DNA from: Bdellovibrionales bacterium
GTDB taxonomy: Bacteria; Bdellovibrionota; UBA1018
Length of the DNA stretch: 64,000 bases
Reading direction: 5' to 3'
NCBI GenBank assembly: GCA_947380295.1
Contig: CANCQK010000012.1
Location: 1 to 64,000 of the forward strand
The translations under genes were made by a program, and so were the position numbers. This document shows, piece by piece, positions 2,630 to 38,959 of this stretch. Each line of letters opens with the position of its first letter. Position 1 is the first letter of the stretch. The notes under the pieces were generated by a model. It was not told the origin of the DNA. It ran no database searches and was given only the letters and a program-made list of their open reading frames with translations.

Positions 2630-6228
<3,599 letters not shown>

Positions 6229-6247
6229 TCGCTTGTTTTCTGTTTGT

Positions 6248-6306
6248 GACATTTTAACCCCCCTAAAATGTCATAGTTGAGGTTATTTTAACCCCCCTAA
6301 AATGTC
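6248..6306 (+). repeat. Duplicated palindromic element upstream of the first AAA/DUF4143 ATPase gene
   Basis: A 22-bp sequence beginning ATTTTAACCCCCC and ending TAAAATGTC occurs identically at 6251-6272 and 6285-6306, a 34-bp period. The first copy is inside a 9-bp perfect inverted repeat (GACATTTTA at 6248-6256, TAAAATGTC at 6264-6272); the second keeps 6-bp arms. It ends 23 bp before the ATG at 6330, so an operator or other protein-binding site is the likely role. A related palindrome precedes the other DUF4143 gene in this window. Confidence 0.75.
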
Positions 6307-6329
6307 TATTTCATGTTAGCCTGTCGATT

Positions 6330-7685
6330 ATGGAACGTTTAGCGCTATCGGAGCTCAGTCGGTGGTGGAAGTCGAAACCAGGAACGCGCAAGCCGCTGAT
6401 TCTCCGAGGCGCGCGTCAGGTAGGGAAGTCGTTTTTGGTGCGAGACTTTTGTGCTCGACAGGGCATTCAGTGCCTTGAGCTGAACTTTGAGCGGGAGCCG
6501 AGCCTTCGAAAATTGTTTCTTGAGGGGCACAACTCAAAAACTGTCTCGTTGTTAGCAACTCATTTTGGAAAGGCGCTAGGTCCAGGAACAGTGCTTTTTT
6601 TAGATGAAATTCAAGCTGCCCCAGAGATTTTTGCGCGTTTGCGTTACTTTTTCGAAGACACGCCCGAAATTGCTGTAATAGCTGCAGGCTCATTGCTTGA
6701 GTTTGCTCTTGCTGAGGCTCATTACAGCGTGCCGGTGGGGCGAGTAGAGTACCTCTATCTGGGGCCATTAGTGTTCGAAGAGTATTTAGCGGCTCTTGGG
6801 GAGTCGGCACTTCTTGCTCTTTTGAGAGAATGGAATCCTGACTTGCCAGAGACTTGGATTCCAGAAGTGTTTCATCAGAAACTGGGTTCGTACGTCCGTG
6901 ATTTTAGTTTGGTGGGCGGCATGCCTGAGGCGATTAATGCGTTTCTACCTTCACGTGATTTTCTGCGAACTGCTCAAGTTCAGCGAAGTCTACTGGATAC
7001 CTATAAGAATGATTTTGCAAAGTATCGAAGGAGGACGCCCATTGAAAGGCTGGATCGGGTTTTTGGTGCTATTCCGTCGCAAATAGGAAAAAAATGGGTT
7101 CACGCGCGAGTGAGTCAGTATGAAAAAGCGGCTGCAGTTCAAAGCACTTTAGATCTTCTCTGTATGGCTAAGGTTGCGCATTGTGTTTTTCATACTTCTG
7201 GAAATGGTGTTCCACTAGCGGCCGAAAAAAAGGATCAAATTTTCAAATTGTTGTTTCTTGACGTGGGCTTGGCTGGGAACCAACTCGGGCTTCGAGCCGT
7301 CGATGTGCTCGACCTGCAGAGTTTCGCCAGGGTAAATGAGGGTGCCCTTGCAGAGCAGTGGATTGGTCAGCATCTTTTAGAGCTACGAGAATTTTCGGAA
7401 AATCCTGAAATTTTCTATTGGGTTAGAGAAAAAGCTGGCTCGATGGCTGAAGTGGACTATCTTTTTACCTGCGGTCCCAGGGTCATTCCTGTCGAGGTGA
7501 AATCAGGTCCAACCTCGAGAGCCAAGTCACTTCAAGTCTTCCTTGATGAGAAGAAAAATTCCAAATTTGGTGTGCTCTTTTCTCCTAAAGTAGCCCGCTG
7601 GTCACCTCAGTTGAAGGTTTTGGAATTGCCGTTTTACTTGGTAGGACAGCTGAGTAGAATTTGTAGCTACCTAGATTCTCGATGA
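6330..7685 (+). CDS. AAA ATPase with DUF4143 C-terminal domain
   Basis: The protein is 451 aa. It has Walker A GARQVGKS (27-34), Walker B VLFLDEIQ (Asp92-Glu93), an AAA_14-type core, then the DUF4143 region. Near residues 372-393 an E-x-D ... E-V-K-S-G pattern suggests a PD-(D/E)XK nuclease-like fold, as is usual for this family. Members are abundant, often solitary and horizontally spread in bacteria and archaea, and their function is not settled. The gene stands alone: ligA ends 101 bp upstream and radA is convergent downstream. The duplicated palindrome just upstream hints at autoregulation. The start ATG lacks a strong Shine-Dalgarno. Confidence 0.88.
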   Translation: MERLALSELSRWWKSKPGTRKPLILRGARQVGKSFLVRDFCARQGIQCLELNFEREPSLRKLFLEGHNSKTVSLLATHFGKALGPGTVLFLDEIQAAPEIFARLRYFFEDTPEIAVIAAGSLLEFALAEAHYSVPVGRVEYLYLGPLVFEEYLAALGESALLALLREWNPDLPETWIPEVFHQKLGSYVRDFSLVGGMPEAINAFLPSRDFLRTAQVQRSLLDTYKNDFAKYRRRTPIERLDRVFGAIPSQIGKKWVHARVSQYEKAAAVQSTLDLLCMAKVAHCVFHTSGNGVPLAAEKKDQIFKLLFLDVGLAGNQLGLRAVDVLDLQSFARVNEGALAEQWIGQHLLELREFSENPEIFYWVREKAGSMAEVDYLFTCGPRVIPVEVKSGPTSRAKSLQVFLDEKKNSKFGVLFSPKVARWSPQLKVLELPFYLVGQLSRICSYLDSR

Positions 7686-7696
7686 ATTTTTTAGCA

Positions 7697-9154
7697 CTAC
7701 GCCGAAAAAAGACTCTTTAACTCCTCAATTCGAGAAATGAGGAAAAGATCAATTTTTTTGGCTCGCTGGTCCCGATTGAGTTTTTCAAGCAACGCTTTGG
7801 GAGTGCTCTTAGGGAGGACAATTGTCTTGAACCCCTGTCGCACAGCCTCTTCGACTCGAGAGTCCGACTGTGATACCCGGCGCACCTCGCCAGTGAGTCC
7901 AAGCTCTCCGATAAAGACACTTCCTAACGGGAGTTTTTTATCCTGGGAGCTCGACCAAATTGCAGCAGCGGCTGCGAGATCAGAGGCGGGCTCGTTGAGC
8001 TTAAGTCCACCCGCGACATTGAAAAACAGATCTTGCTCTGCAAGAGGAAGTTTCATGTGTTTTTCCAAGATTGCTGCGATGAGTGAAATTCGAGCCGAGT
8101 CAATCCCGACAGATGTGCGGCGAGGTACGGCCAGTCCCGAAGGGGTGACCAGAGCCTGGAGTTCAACTAAGAGGGGGCGAGTTCCCTCTAACAGAGCAGC
8201 GATTGAAGTGCCGGCGATGGATTCGGTTCGTTCGCTGAGAAATAAAGAAGAAGGGTTGGTGACTTCCTTTAGTCCTTCTCCGACCATTTCAAAGACGCCC
8301 AGTTCATGGGTGCTGCCGAACCGATTTTTTACAGTCCTTAAAAGTCGATAAGACTGGCCGCCTTCACCTTCAAAGTAAAGGACGGTATCCACCATGTGTT
8401 CGACCGTTTTCGGGCCGGCAATGTTGCCTTCTTTCGTGACGTGACCGACTAAGCAAATTGCGATTCCCGCAGTCTTGGCCAAAGTCATCAGTCGTGCCGT
8501 GACTTCGCGGACCTGACTGACACTTCCCTGTGCAGACTGAACATAGGCCGTTGAGAAGGTCTGTAGTGAGTCCATCACGATGATCTGAGGAGCGAGTTGT
8601 TGAATCGAAGCAAACACCTTTTCGAGCTGAGTCTCTGCTCCTAAAAAGATCTGTCCGTGTCCTTGGATGCCCAGGCGGTGCGCGCGACCCCGAATTTGAT
8701 CGATGGACTCCTCACCGCTGACATAAAATACCTTGATCCCCGGATTTTGATCACAAGCCCCTTTGGCCATTTGTAAAAGCAAAGTGCTCTTGCCAATCCC
8801 TGGATCCCCGCCGAGAAGGGTGAATCCGTCAGTGACGAGACCACCCCCCAGGACTCGGTTGAGTTCTGAAATCCCTGTGGAATATCGGGACAAAGTTTTT
8901 TGAGGTGCCGGAGAGCCGTCCTCCTGTGTTGTGGGGGGTGTGAGCTCGACCCATCCATCAGAGAGGTTTTCGGATTGATTTCTGGAGGATTTAAACTGCT
9001 CTCGAACATCAGCTAATGTGGTGCCGTCGGTCGGTGCAACGGGGGTGTCTTCGATGAATGAATTCCATTCGTCACAAGAGGGGCACTTACCAAGCCATTT
9101 TGCGATCACGTAGTCGCAGTTCTGGCACTTGTATTGCGTCTTAGGCTTTGCCAC
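7697..9154 (-). CDS. radA: DNA repair protein RadA (Sms)
   Basis: The protein is 485 aa. The N-terminal C4 zinc finger (Cys10, Cys13, Cys24, Cys27), the RecA-like Walker A GGDPGIGKST, the RadA-specific KNRFG motif and a C-terminal Lon-protease-like domain are all in place. RadA drives branch migration of recombination intermediates. The start is GTG at 9154; it overlaps the end of glpK by 14 bp, so the two are translationally linked although they have no shared pathway. Confidence 0.96.
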   Translation of the reverse strand: MAKPKTQYKCQNCDYVIAKWLGKCPSCDEWNSFIEDTPVAPTDGTTLADVREQFKSSRNQSENLSDGWVELTPPTTQEDGSPAPQKTLSRYSTGISELNRVLGGGLVTDGFTLLGGDPGIGKSTLLLQMAKGACDQNPGIKVFYVSGEESIDQIRGRAHRLGIQGHGQIFLGAETQLEKVFASIQQLAPQIIVMDSLQTFSTAYVQSAQGSVSQVREVTARLMTLAKTAGIAICLVGHVTKEGNIAGPKTVEHMVDTVLYFEGEGGQSYRLLRTVKNRFGSTHELGVFEMVGEGLKEVTNPSSLFLSERTESIAGTSIAALLEGTRPLLVELQALVTPSGLAVPRRTSVGIDSARISLIAAILEKHMKLPLAEQDLFFNVAGGLKLNEPASDLAAAAAIWSSSQDKKLPLGSVFIGELGLTGEVRRVSQSDSRVEEAVRQGFKTIVLPKSTPKALLEKLNRDQRAKKIDLFLISRIEELKSLFSA

Positions 9155-37729: not shown

Positions 37730-38860
37730 CTAAGTTTCTAAATGACTCAGCCATTCGCTCCCTTGGGCGATGAGCACAGAACCAACAGTTTTCGAATGAT
37801 TTGTGTTTTTTACCAATTGAATGAGTTGTGCGTTTTTGAAGTACTCAGAGAATCCCAAAAGAGAGCTTGAAGGTTGGGTGTCGCTGAGTTTGACTTCGAC
37901 GAGCCACTCGGGCTTGCGGTCGCGAATGGTGAGAAAGTCGACCTCACGTTTCTGTTTATCACGAATGTAATTGAGCACCAGGTGTTCACCTCGGGTGTCT
38001 TCTAGAAAGTGGTTCCGCTTGAGAAGCGAGCAGGCGACGAGATTTTCGAATCGCGCAGCAGGATCATTTTTTACTCTACCTGTGTCGTAGAAATAGATCT
38101 TAGGTTCTTTTTTAATGGCTCGAGCAATGTCCTTGCTGTAGGGCGTGACCACAAAGATCACCATGAGTTTTTCTAGAATTTGTATCCAGCGTTGAATGGT
38201 TCTTGGTGCGACCTGGAGGTCTCGTGCGAGAGAGGCAGCAGAAATGGTGCTTCCTACTCGGTCCGCGAGAAGGTCGACGAGAATTTCAATGTTTTGCAGC
38301 TCTCGGATTTGTTCTAAGTCGAGGAGGTCTTCACGTAGAATTCGGTCTAAATGACTTCTTCTCCAGCGCTTGGCATATTCTAGTGATCCTTCATAAAAAG
38401 GTTCTGGGAATCCGCCGATGTTCATGAGGCGATCTAAGCTCTCGTTAGCGTCTTTGAGTTCTCCAGCTGTTTTGAGTTCTGCTAGTGAGAGGGGGTGGAG
38501 TCGAAAATAGAAAAATCGGCCTGCCATGGAGTCGCTCCCTTTTTTGTAGGTGTCTAGGCGGGCGGAGCCGGTCACGAGAATCCGAGGTCTGTTCCCTTCT
38601 TTGTCGTAAATCCCTTTCAGCCAAGTTTTCCAGGTTTTCATTTTGTGGAGCTCATCAAGAATCAGTAAATCCTGTTTGCGGCTCCAGTTTTTTTTCCTGA
38701 TGACTTCACGGTCGTCACTGTTGTCATAGGTTAGATATTCACTGCATTTTGGGAAAAGAGAATGAGAGAGTGTGGTTTTGCCAACTTGTCTTGGACCACC
38801 AATGAGGACCATTTTTCGCTCAAGATCTTTTAGGACAAACGGATGGATGGATCGTTCCAT
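37730..38860 (-). CDS. AAA ATPase with DUF4143 C-terminal domain (second copy)
   Basis: The protein is 376 aa. It has Walker A GGPRQVGKT (21-29), Walker B LLILDELH (Asp69-Glu70), then the DUF4143 region and a C-terminal REVDFLTIRD ... LVEVKLSD pattern that resembles a PD-(D/E)XK site. It shares little sequence with the other DUF4143 protein beyond the motifs, so the two are old or independent acquisitions. Its start codon lies inside a perfect 31-bp inverted repeat, and the 3' end faces a broken antitoxin gene. The family is solitary and of unsettled function. Confidence 0.88.
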   Translation of the reverse strand: MERSIHPFVLKDLERKMVLIGGPRQVGKTTLSHSLFPKCSEYLTYDNSDDREVIRKKNWSRKQDLLILDELHKMKTWKTWLKGIYDKEGNRPRILVTGSARLDTYKKGSDSMAGRFFYFRLHPLSLAELKTAGELKDANESLDRLMNIGGFPEPFYEGSLEYAKRWRRSHLDRILREDLLDLEQIRELQNIEILVDLLADRVGSTISAASLARDLQVAPRTIQRWIQILEKLMVIFVVTPYSKDIARAIKKEPKIYFYDTGRVKNDPAARFENLVACSLLKRNHFLEDTRGEHLVLNYIRDKQKREVDFLTIRDRKPEWLVEVKLSDTQPSSSLLGFSEYFKNAQLIQLVKNTNHSKTVGSVLIAQGSEWLSHLET

Positions 38861-38929
38861 TTAACTATTTTAACATCAATGTCAAAATAGTCATACCTTT
38901 TTGACATTGATGTTAAAATAGTTAAATGG
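38857..38929 (-). repeat. Perfect 31-bp inverted repeat covering the start of the second DUF4143 gene
   Basis: Arms 38857-38887 and 38899-38929 are exact reverse complements, separated by 11 bp. One arm includes the start codon. Each arm carries a smaller palindrome ACTATTTT ... AAAATAGT (38864-38871 and 38884-38891 on the left). The right arm holds TTGACA on both readings, so promoter and operator may coincide. The inner ATTTTAAC-N-AAAAT pattern is also found upstream of the first DUF4143 gene. Confidence 0.85.
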
Positions 38930-38959
38930 AGTGATGGGGTCTCGGACTCTACAAATAAA

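Follow-up and report, generated by a model that had tools for sequence, protein, structure and literature searches.

A widespread candidate phage-defence family appears to control its own genes through gene-specific repeated promoter sites

Introduction

Members of a widespread candidate phage-defence family, PDC-S01, appear to control their own genes through repeated promoter sites specific to each gene. For one branch, a match between amino acids and DNA letters appears to be readable from the sequences alone. The example around which the analysis is built is an AAA_14-DUF4143 ATPase gene in a stretch of 64,000 nucleotides from a Bdellovibrionales bacterium (the window, meaning the whole of this stretch), where two copies of a short sequence precede the gene. 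In our judgement these repeats are, with considerable probability, the operator of the ATPase gene and are read by the ATPase itself, each PDC-S01 controlling its own gene. The argument draws on computed properties, namely the sites, their spacing and conservation, the covariation between operator arms and, in a sister class of the family, the covariation between a helix-turn-helix and the operator. What seems to be new is a candidate effector that reads its own gene-specific operator. A full-text literature search, with bioRxiv and most subscription papers outside it, returned no report of an operator or of autoregulation for DUF4143 or PDC-S01, and no title on the function of Rv2008c or Rv3179, which we take to be DUF4143 proteins.

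In the accessible part of the source that describes it, PDC-S01 ranks fourth in frequency among the 'defence systems' of prokaryotes and consists of an ATPase fused to a PD-(D/E)XK domain (PMC12988326). Most PDCs await experimental validation, and the same part of that paper gives no mechanism for PDC-S01; this paper and a second one that covers PDC-S01 are surveys. The DUF4143 genes of the window match the PDC-S01 models and share this fusion. The features of the window are collected in Table 1.

Table 1. Coordinates of the features discussed, in positions of the window.
Feature	Position	Strand	Basis or remark
Distal site	6248..6272	+	GACATTTTA-ACCCCCC-TAAAATGTC, quasi-palindrome; core kept in L042, L043 and L045
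Proximal site	6285..6306	+	Repeats the distal site exactly over 22 bp, in direct orientation; -45 to -24
AAA_14-DUF4143 ATPase gene, 451 aa, PADLOC PDC-S01	6330..7685	+	Pfam, PADLOC
Predicted winged-helix domain, residues 205-322	6942..7295	+	AlphaFold; modest fold scores
Helix, residues 267-279	7128-7166	+	Aligns with the sister-class recognition helix that covaries with the operator
PD-(D/E)XK nuclease-like part, residues 337-408	7338..7553	+	Alignments
Second DUF4143 (PDC-S01) gene, 376 aa	37730..38860	-	PADLOC PDC-S01 models
Inverted repeat (arms of 32 bp) at the second gene's start	38856..38930	-	Sequence unlike the sites of the first gene

A directly repeated site upstream of the ATPase gene

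Directly upstream of the gene lie two exact 22-bp copies of ATTTTAACCCCCCTAAAATGTC, as an earlier note on this DNA had described, at 6251-6272 and 6285-6306 (-79..-58 and -45..-24 relative to the start codon). The start-to-start distance of 34 bp fits the spacing of about three helical turns that was proposed there. The 22-bp repeat is absent from 100 shuffles of the window. With up to three mismatches allowed, a search for its 21-base core gave no site beyond these two in the 2.84-Mb assembly, which has 31 contigs and is 93.7% complete. A looser pattern, ATTTTA-N7-TAAAAT with at most one mismatch, occurs 37 times in the assembly compared with 28 for a control pattern; the full site occurs twice. 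Viral contigs held no exact match to the 21-base core, and a plasmid search gave nothing beyond 32-base matches in two Cupriavidus plasmids.

The same note had called the element a duplicated palindrome; the duplication holds, but the palindrome was overstated. In the distal copy the arms reach 9-10 bp, (T)GACATTTTA-ACCCCCC-TAAAATGTC(A) at 6247-6273. In the proximal copy they are only 6 bp long (ATTTTA/TAAAAT) because the flanking bases at its left are TT and not AC. The palindrome alone is weak, its score being reached by one of 100 dinucleotide shuffles of the promoter, and in a sister species the left arm of the distal copy has decayed to the point that it is no longer palindromic, with a 20-bp direct repeat intact. 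The palindrome is ruled out as the conserved unit, since the sister species retains the direct repeat and not the distal left arm; the direct repeat is the conserved element upstream of the window gene, and 'directly repeated quasi-palindrome' is therefore the right description.

The coding strand at 6190-6360 yielded no sigma-70-like promoter, and both repression and activation are therefore possible for this gene. Separately, a REP-like motif, GGGACGGAG(CTC), was observed, with seven copies of GGGACGGAG over both strands of the window; by eye, it also lies near several DUF4143 genes of the same genome.

Domains and predicted structure of the ATPase

The window protein matches DUF4143 (PF13635; score 91.1, cut-off 28.1, 7.9e-26) and AAA_14 (PF13173; 76.3, cut-off 27, 2.8e-21) in Pfam, and the PADLOC model PDLC04788 for PDC-S01 over its full length (1.4e-129; residues 1-447 on 1-443 of 448). 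By these matches it is a PDC-S01 protein, and as such a phage-defence candidate. The PADLOC models for PDC-S01 match both DUF4143 genes of the window and the two sister-class genes tested. In NCBIfam nothing exceeded a cut-off for the window protein. The second gene has an HTH_11 match in Pfam at residues 204-239, which scores 20.8, below the cut-off of 25.

A sequence search for relatives in the PDB gave two matches, with E of 0.75 and 1.4, neither of them credible. The AlphaFold model of the whole window protein has a mean pLDDT of 91.4, and residues 205-322 modelled alone reach 90.6. For residues 1-320 the best fold matches are PABY2304 (2qen; Z 16.7, 4.7 A over 272 residues) followed by SSO1545 (2fna; Z 15.7, 4.1 A over 265 residues), both archaeal Walker-type ATPases; the match ends before the nuclease-like part of the window protein. 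The NTPase-winged-helix arrangement also recalls STAND NTPases, but chains of the NLR and CED-4 type reach Z 11.6-14.2, which is less than the archaeal ATPases and not far from p97 (at most 12.4).

Taken alone, the predicted winged helix gives 8.5 with the Arabidopsis EDS1-PAD4-ADR1 complex, 7.6 with Fur and about 7 with MarR and ArsR types. It also matches Orc1/Cdc6 bound to origin DNA (2qby; Z 7.6, 4.0 A over 98 residues), in which AAA+ is likewise followed by a winged helix; this likeness is one of fold. Foldseek returned no winged-helix match for these residues at E <= 0.001, and the fold scores below 8 may reflect a common arrangement alone. In the nuclease-like part, the putative PD-(D/E)XK residues E342, D376, E389 and K391 are invariant in 16 and in 40 aligned sequences.

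Conservation of the paired sites in orthologues and other phyla

In orthologues with 96, 62 and 55% identity the ACCCCC core is again present twice, 34 bp apart (a further orthologue at 64%, L044, begins at a contig end and its upstream region is missing). These orthologues occupy three contexts: between genes that, by reading of the sequence, we take to be ligA and radA; among other DUF4143 genes; and beside what is presumably a sugar-nucleotide enzyme. The core pair is kept in all three contexts, and therefore the site goes with the gene; it is a conserved, gene-linked promoter site. As an observation on one of these loci, L043 (G012 contig 75) has three different DUF4143-type ATPase genes adjoining, of 388, 454 and 401 aa.

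A wider scan, with 16 window-type proteins as queries, covered the best 80 of 561 confirmed stretches, and its loci come from Delta- and Gammaproteobacteria, Legionella, Chlamydiae, spirochaetes, Elusimicrobia, Bacteroidetes and others. Among these best 80 of 561, direct repeats at an offset of 31-34 bp and a score of at least 9 precede 37 of 87 DUF4143 genes compared with 0 of 164 other genes of the same loci. Every gene matching the DUF4143 HMM had been removed from this control set, upon which six earlier control matches at 32-33 bp vanished. When offsets from 15 to 60 were left open for the long class, 39 of the 45 matches in the same best 80 stretches fell at 31-33, 32 of them at 33. Furthermore, a site model composed of an A-tract, an ACC core and a T-tract found pairs scoring at least 14 in 61/107 training genes, 2/164 controls and 0.6% of shuffles.

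The pattern was reproduced in a held-out set of 57 new long-class genes from a phylum-wide search. Here direct repeats were found in 23 genes, against 0.26% of shuffles, and the fixed site model found pairs in 31; with the offset open, 23 of 24 matches lay at 32-34. Shorter DUF4143 proteins from the window's family have repeats at 31-32 too (24 of 34 matches, 128 genes). In two loci, L265 and L271, three copies of the site can be made out by eye, in 33-bp steps.

Inverted repeats are also enriched before DUF4143 genes. With the first ATG taken as the start, repeats scoring at least 9 between -120 and +10 were found for 72 of 163 DUF4143 genes and 21 of 335 other genes, a clear upstream stretch being demanded of the controls only. 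With refined DUF4143 starts, picked by distance to Walker A, and the region narrowed to -80..+10, the counts were 70 of 159 and 12 of 332; the reduction from 163 to 159 reflects genes dropped for lack of a recognisable Walker A, a start too near the contig end, or duplication, with L017 contributing none. These genes are related, and Fisher p-values therefore overstate their independence; sister pairs and cross-phylum loci answer part of this. Neither kind of repeat, inverted or direct, is equally common before unrelated genes; equal frequency is what the earlier note would have taken as a refutation. Chance in AT-rich promoter DNA could account for the palindrome of the window taken alone, at one shuffle in 100, but both sets of control genes stand against it, as do two held-out replications, that of the long-class repeats and that of the sister-class dyad described below, and we regard it as scarcely credible.

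DUF4143 genes within one genome

The genome from which the window comes has 25 DUF4143 matches; within its family, 31 of 35 genomes contain one or more, the range being 0-76 (some matches are parts of one gene). Expansion within this one family is extreme and patchy, with 76 matches in G007, 70 in G012, 58 in G016 and 49 in G020. In the window's own genome many copies have their own, differing upstream repeat. For 14 of 24 DUF4143 genes, no more than 2 of 100 shuffles match or exceed the best inverted repeat, and under fixed thresholds 15 of 24 have a site and 9 have none; two paralogues share a 7-base operator arm. Among 14 sister-class operators from one genome, none of the 91 pairs was identical. 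At some loci, divergent DUF4143 pairs apparently share an inverted-repeat region (L130 and L141 on G007 contig 141, and L054 on both strands).

An operator at a fixed position in the sister class

A sister class of PDC-S01 proteins, of about 390 aa with Walker A 16-18 residues from the start, has a dyad whose axis lies at a constant 15 bases upstream of the start codon. Here the pairing reaches 0.71 (n=35) compared with a median of 0.27 over all axes, and in held-out genes it is 0.74 (n=97), with medians over axes of 0.27-0.28. The same axis is weak in the group with a Walker distance of 20 (0.49) and is not shared by the groups at 21-26. Each column of the dyad holds at most four pair types. 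The two arms covary: 271 of 400 cells are paired in the first set compared with 169 after exchange of right arms (2000 permutations, maximum 195), and 714 of 970 in the held-out set compared with 472 (maximum 509). The fixed position, together with the finding of no third copy of the window's site in the assembly, and hence of none downstream of the gene, speaks against the sites being the ends of a mobile element or the footprint of an insertion; the multi-copy, patchy occurrence of DUF4143 genes would suit such an origin, which we nevertheless consider extremely improbable.

The promoter of this class has TTGAC at -37 and an A/T-rich -10 element at about -14. A Shine-Dalgarno-like motif is found in 1/42 sister-class genes and 6/159 of all DUF4143 genes, compared with 85/332 control genes. 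These features fit a leaderless message, with a predicted operator that lies over the -10 box and the start codon.

Covariation of the helix-turn-helix with the operator

Once whole-protein similarity had been removed, the similarity of operators was set against the local similarity of the proteins at points along their length. The genes used were those with at least 6 of 10 operator positions paired (32 of 42 in the first set, 84 of 97 held out), which a redundancy cut at 85% reduced to 31, 82 and, for all, 113. The helix-turn-helix inside DUF4143 is the outstanding peak, with r=0.34 and 0/300 permutations in the first set (n=31) and r=0.35 and 0/500 in the held-out set (n=82). A weak second peak of the sister class lies at residues 417-433 (r=0.14; 23/500 held-out, 7/500 all). 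The eight leading columns all belong to the helix-turn-helix, with z from 8 to 22, and the best column elsewhere reaches 7.0.

Individual residues follow individual bases. At the first helix position the pairings are D-C in 21/21 genes, H-G in 18/18, T-T in 13/14, V-T in 7/7 and Y-A in 7/8, with S, P, A and E mixed; at the next position they are K-G in 59/61, R-G in 6/6 and P-A in 6/6, with T, V and S mixed. The His-G and Lys-G pairings are sensible ones. A residue-base table from 84 genes, whose columns had been chosen on all genes beforehand, gave 99 of 129 bases correctly in 32 other genes, compared with 75 for the majority base and 75 for the nearest relative. The test genes had less than 70% identity to the training genes, and residues were scored if seen at least three times in training (129 of 160 possible cases); for one of five positions the table does no better than the nearest relative. 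Along with this, in 46 independent sister pairs the changes in the arms follow changes in the recognition residues (rho 0.61, p 8e-6), and both arms change at 64 of 322 positions where 31 are expected. At control positions the corresponding figures are 39 against 25 expected in the spacer and 52 against 42 outside.

These results bear on a hairpin or attenuator in the leader RNA, which inverted repeats just 5' of the start codon might suggest. In the sister class, which looks leaderless, the left arm of such a hairpin would stay untranscribed, and the covariation is with a DNA-binding helix; in the window the conserved unit is a direct repeat, and Rfam has no match at 6000-7900. We hold this explanation to be very improbable. 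Control of the ATPase gene by an unrelated host transcription factor, with the sites as its operators, is also improbable, if less so. It would agree with the window class, in which covariation between the helix-turn-helix and the operator was not found, but no further copy of the site turned up in the assembly. The site also accompanies the gene in three contexts and differs between most paralogues, and in the sister class it covaries with the helix-turn-helix of the gene's own product.

The earlier note had suggested that the ATPase could bind its own promoter. For the sister class this is strongly supported by the covariation; for the window class, conservation of the site and the predicted fold favour it, but no covariation of the helix-turn-helix with the operator was found at n=56 or at n=87, in tests confined to plus-oriented site pairs scoring at least 11. 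One sub-test of three gave a weak covariation between residues 389-403, in the nuclease-like part, and the site's left half (0/300 permutations), and a surface other than the helix-turn-helix may read the DNA in this class. From the conservation of the site and the sister-class covariation we infer that window-class proteins, too, bind their own sites.

That sole hint of covariation in the window class, together with the invariant nuclease-like motif, would suit a protein that used the sites to tether the nuclease or as a place to cut, in self-tagging, homing or control of activation, with any transcriptional effect secondary. Against this, the sister-class dyad lies over the -35, the -10 and the start codon, the usual place of a repressor site, and we give this reading a low probability, similar to that of a host factor.

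A model for self-regulation and its relation to known systems

The preferred explanation remains that the ATPase reads the operator of its own gene. In each PDC-S01 (AAA_14-DUF4143) protein a winged helix would sit between the ATPase and nuclease-like domains. In the sister class, the recognition helix would physically contact a dyad, specific to the gene in most cases, lying across the -35/-10 region and the start codon; given this overlap, binding should block RNA polymerase and would keep expression low, which would make the effect autorepression and not activation. In the window class, the operator would be made up of quasi-palindromic sites, two or in some cases three, which follow one another at about 33 bp along one face of the DNA, an arrangement that suits cooperative binding by a dimer or a larger ATPase assembly, and the binder would again be the protein itself. 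The ATP state or a phage-derived trigger may alter binding, and through such a trigger regulation would be linked to defence.

A related arrangement is found in RptR, a dedicated autorepressor of a phage-defence island, according to the accessible part of PMC12255303. Like the proteins proposed here, it is a defence-locus protein that binds direct repeats, themselves holding palindromes, over the -10 box of its own promoter. Unlike them, RptR is small, is dedicated to regulation and has a site of 6 bp, whereas PDC-S01 would be a candidate effector acting through longer sites that differ among genes. Toxin-antitoxin modules, as described in the same part of that source, are likewise autoregulated from operators at their own promoters (PMC12255303); PDC-S01 differs in being a single gene, with no antitoxin partner apparent.

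A broader reading, which we offer tentatively and think rather unlikely, is that the PDC-S01 proteins are a large collection of self-reading DNA switches, almost orthogonal to one another, the operator being both an autorepressor site and a tether or sensor from which a phage factor releases the effector. Such a factor would change the ATP state or compete for the protein, leading to release, more expression and a freed ATPase-nuclease. If so, gene-specific operators would let dozens of these genes coexist in a genome with little cross-talk, and a simple residue-base code would make PDC-S01 specificities predictable.

Regulation of each gene by its own product, as proposed here, suggests that a candidate effector can control itself without a separate regulator. 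The specificity predicted to reside in the recognition helix opens a direct way into experiments on PDC-S01, and gene-specific operators might explain how a single genome accommodates tens of paralogues.
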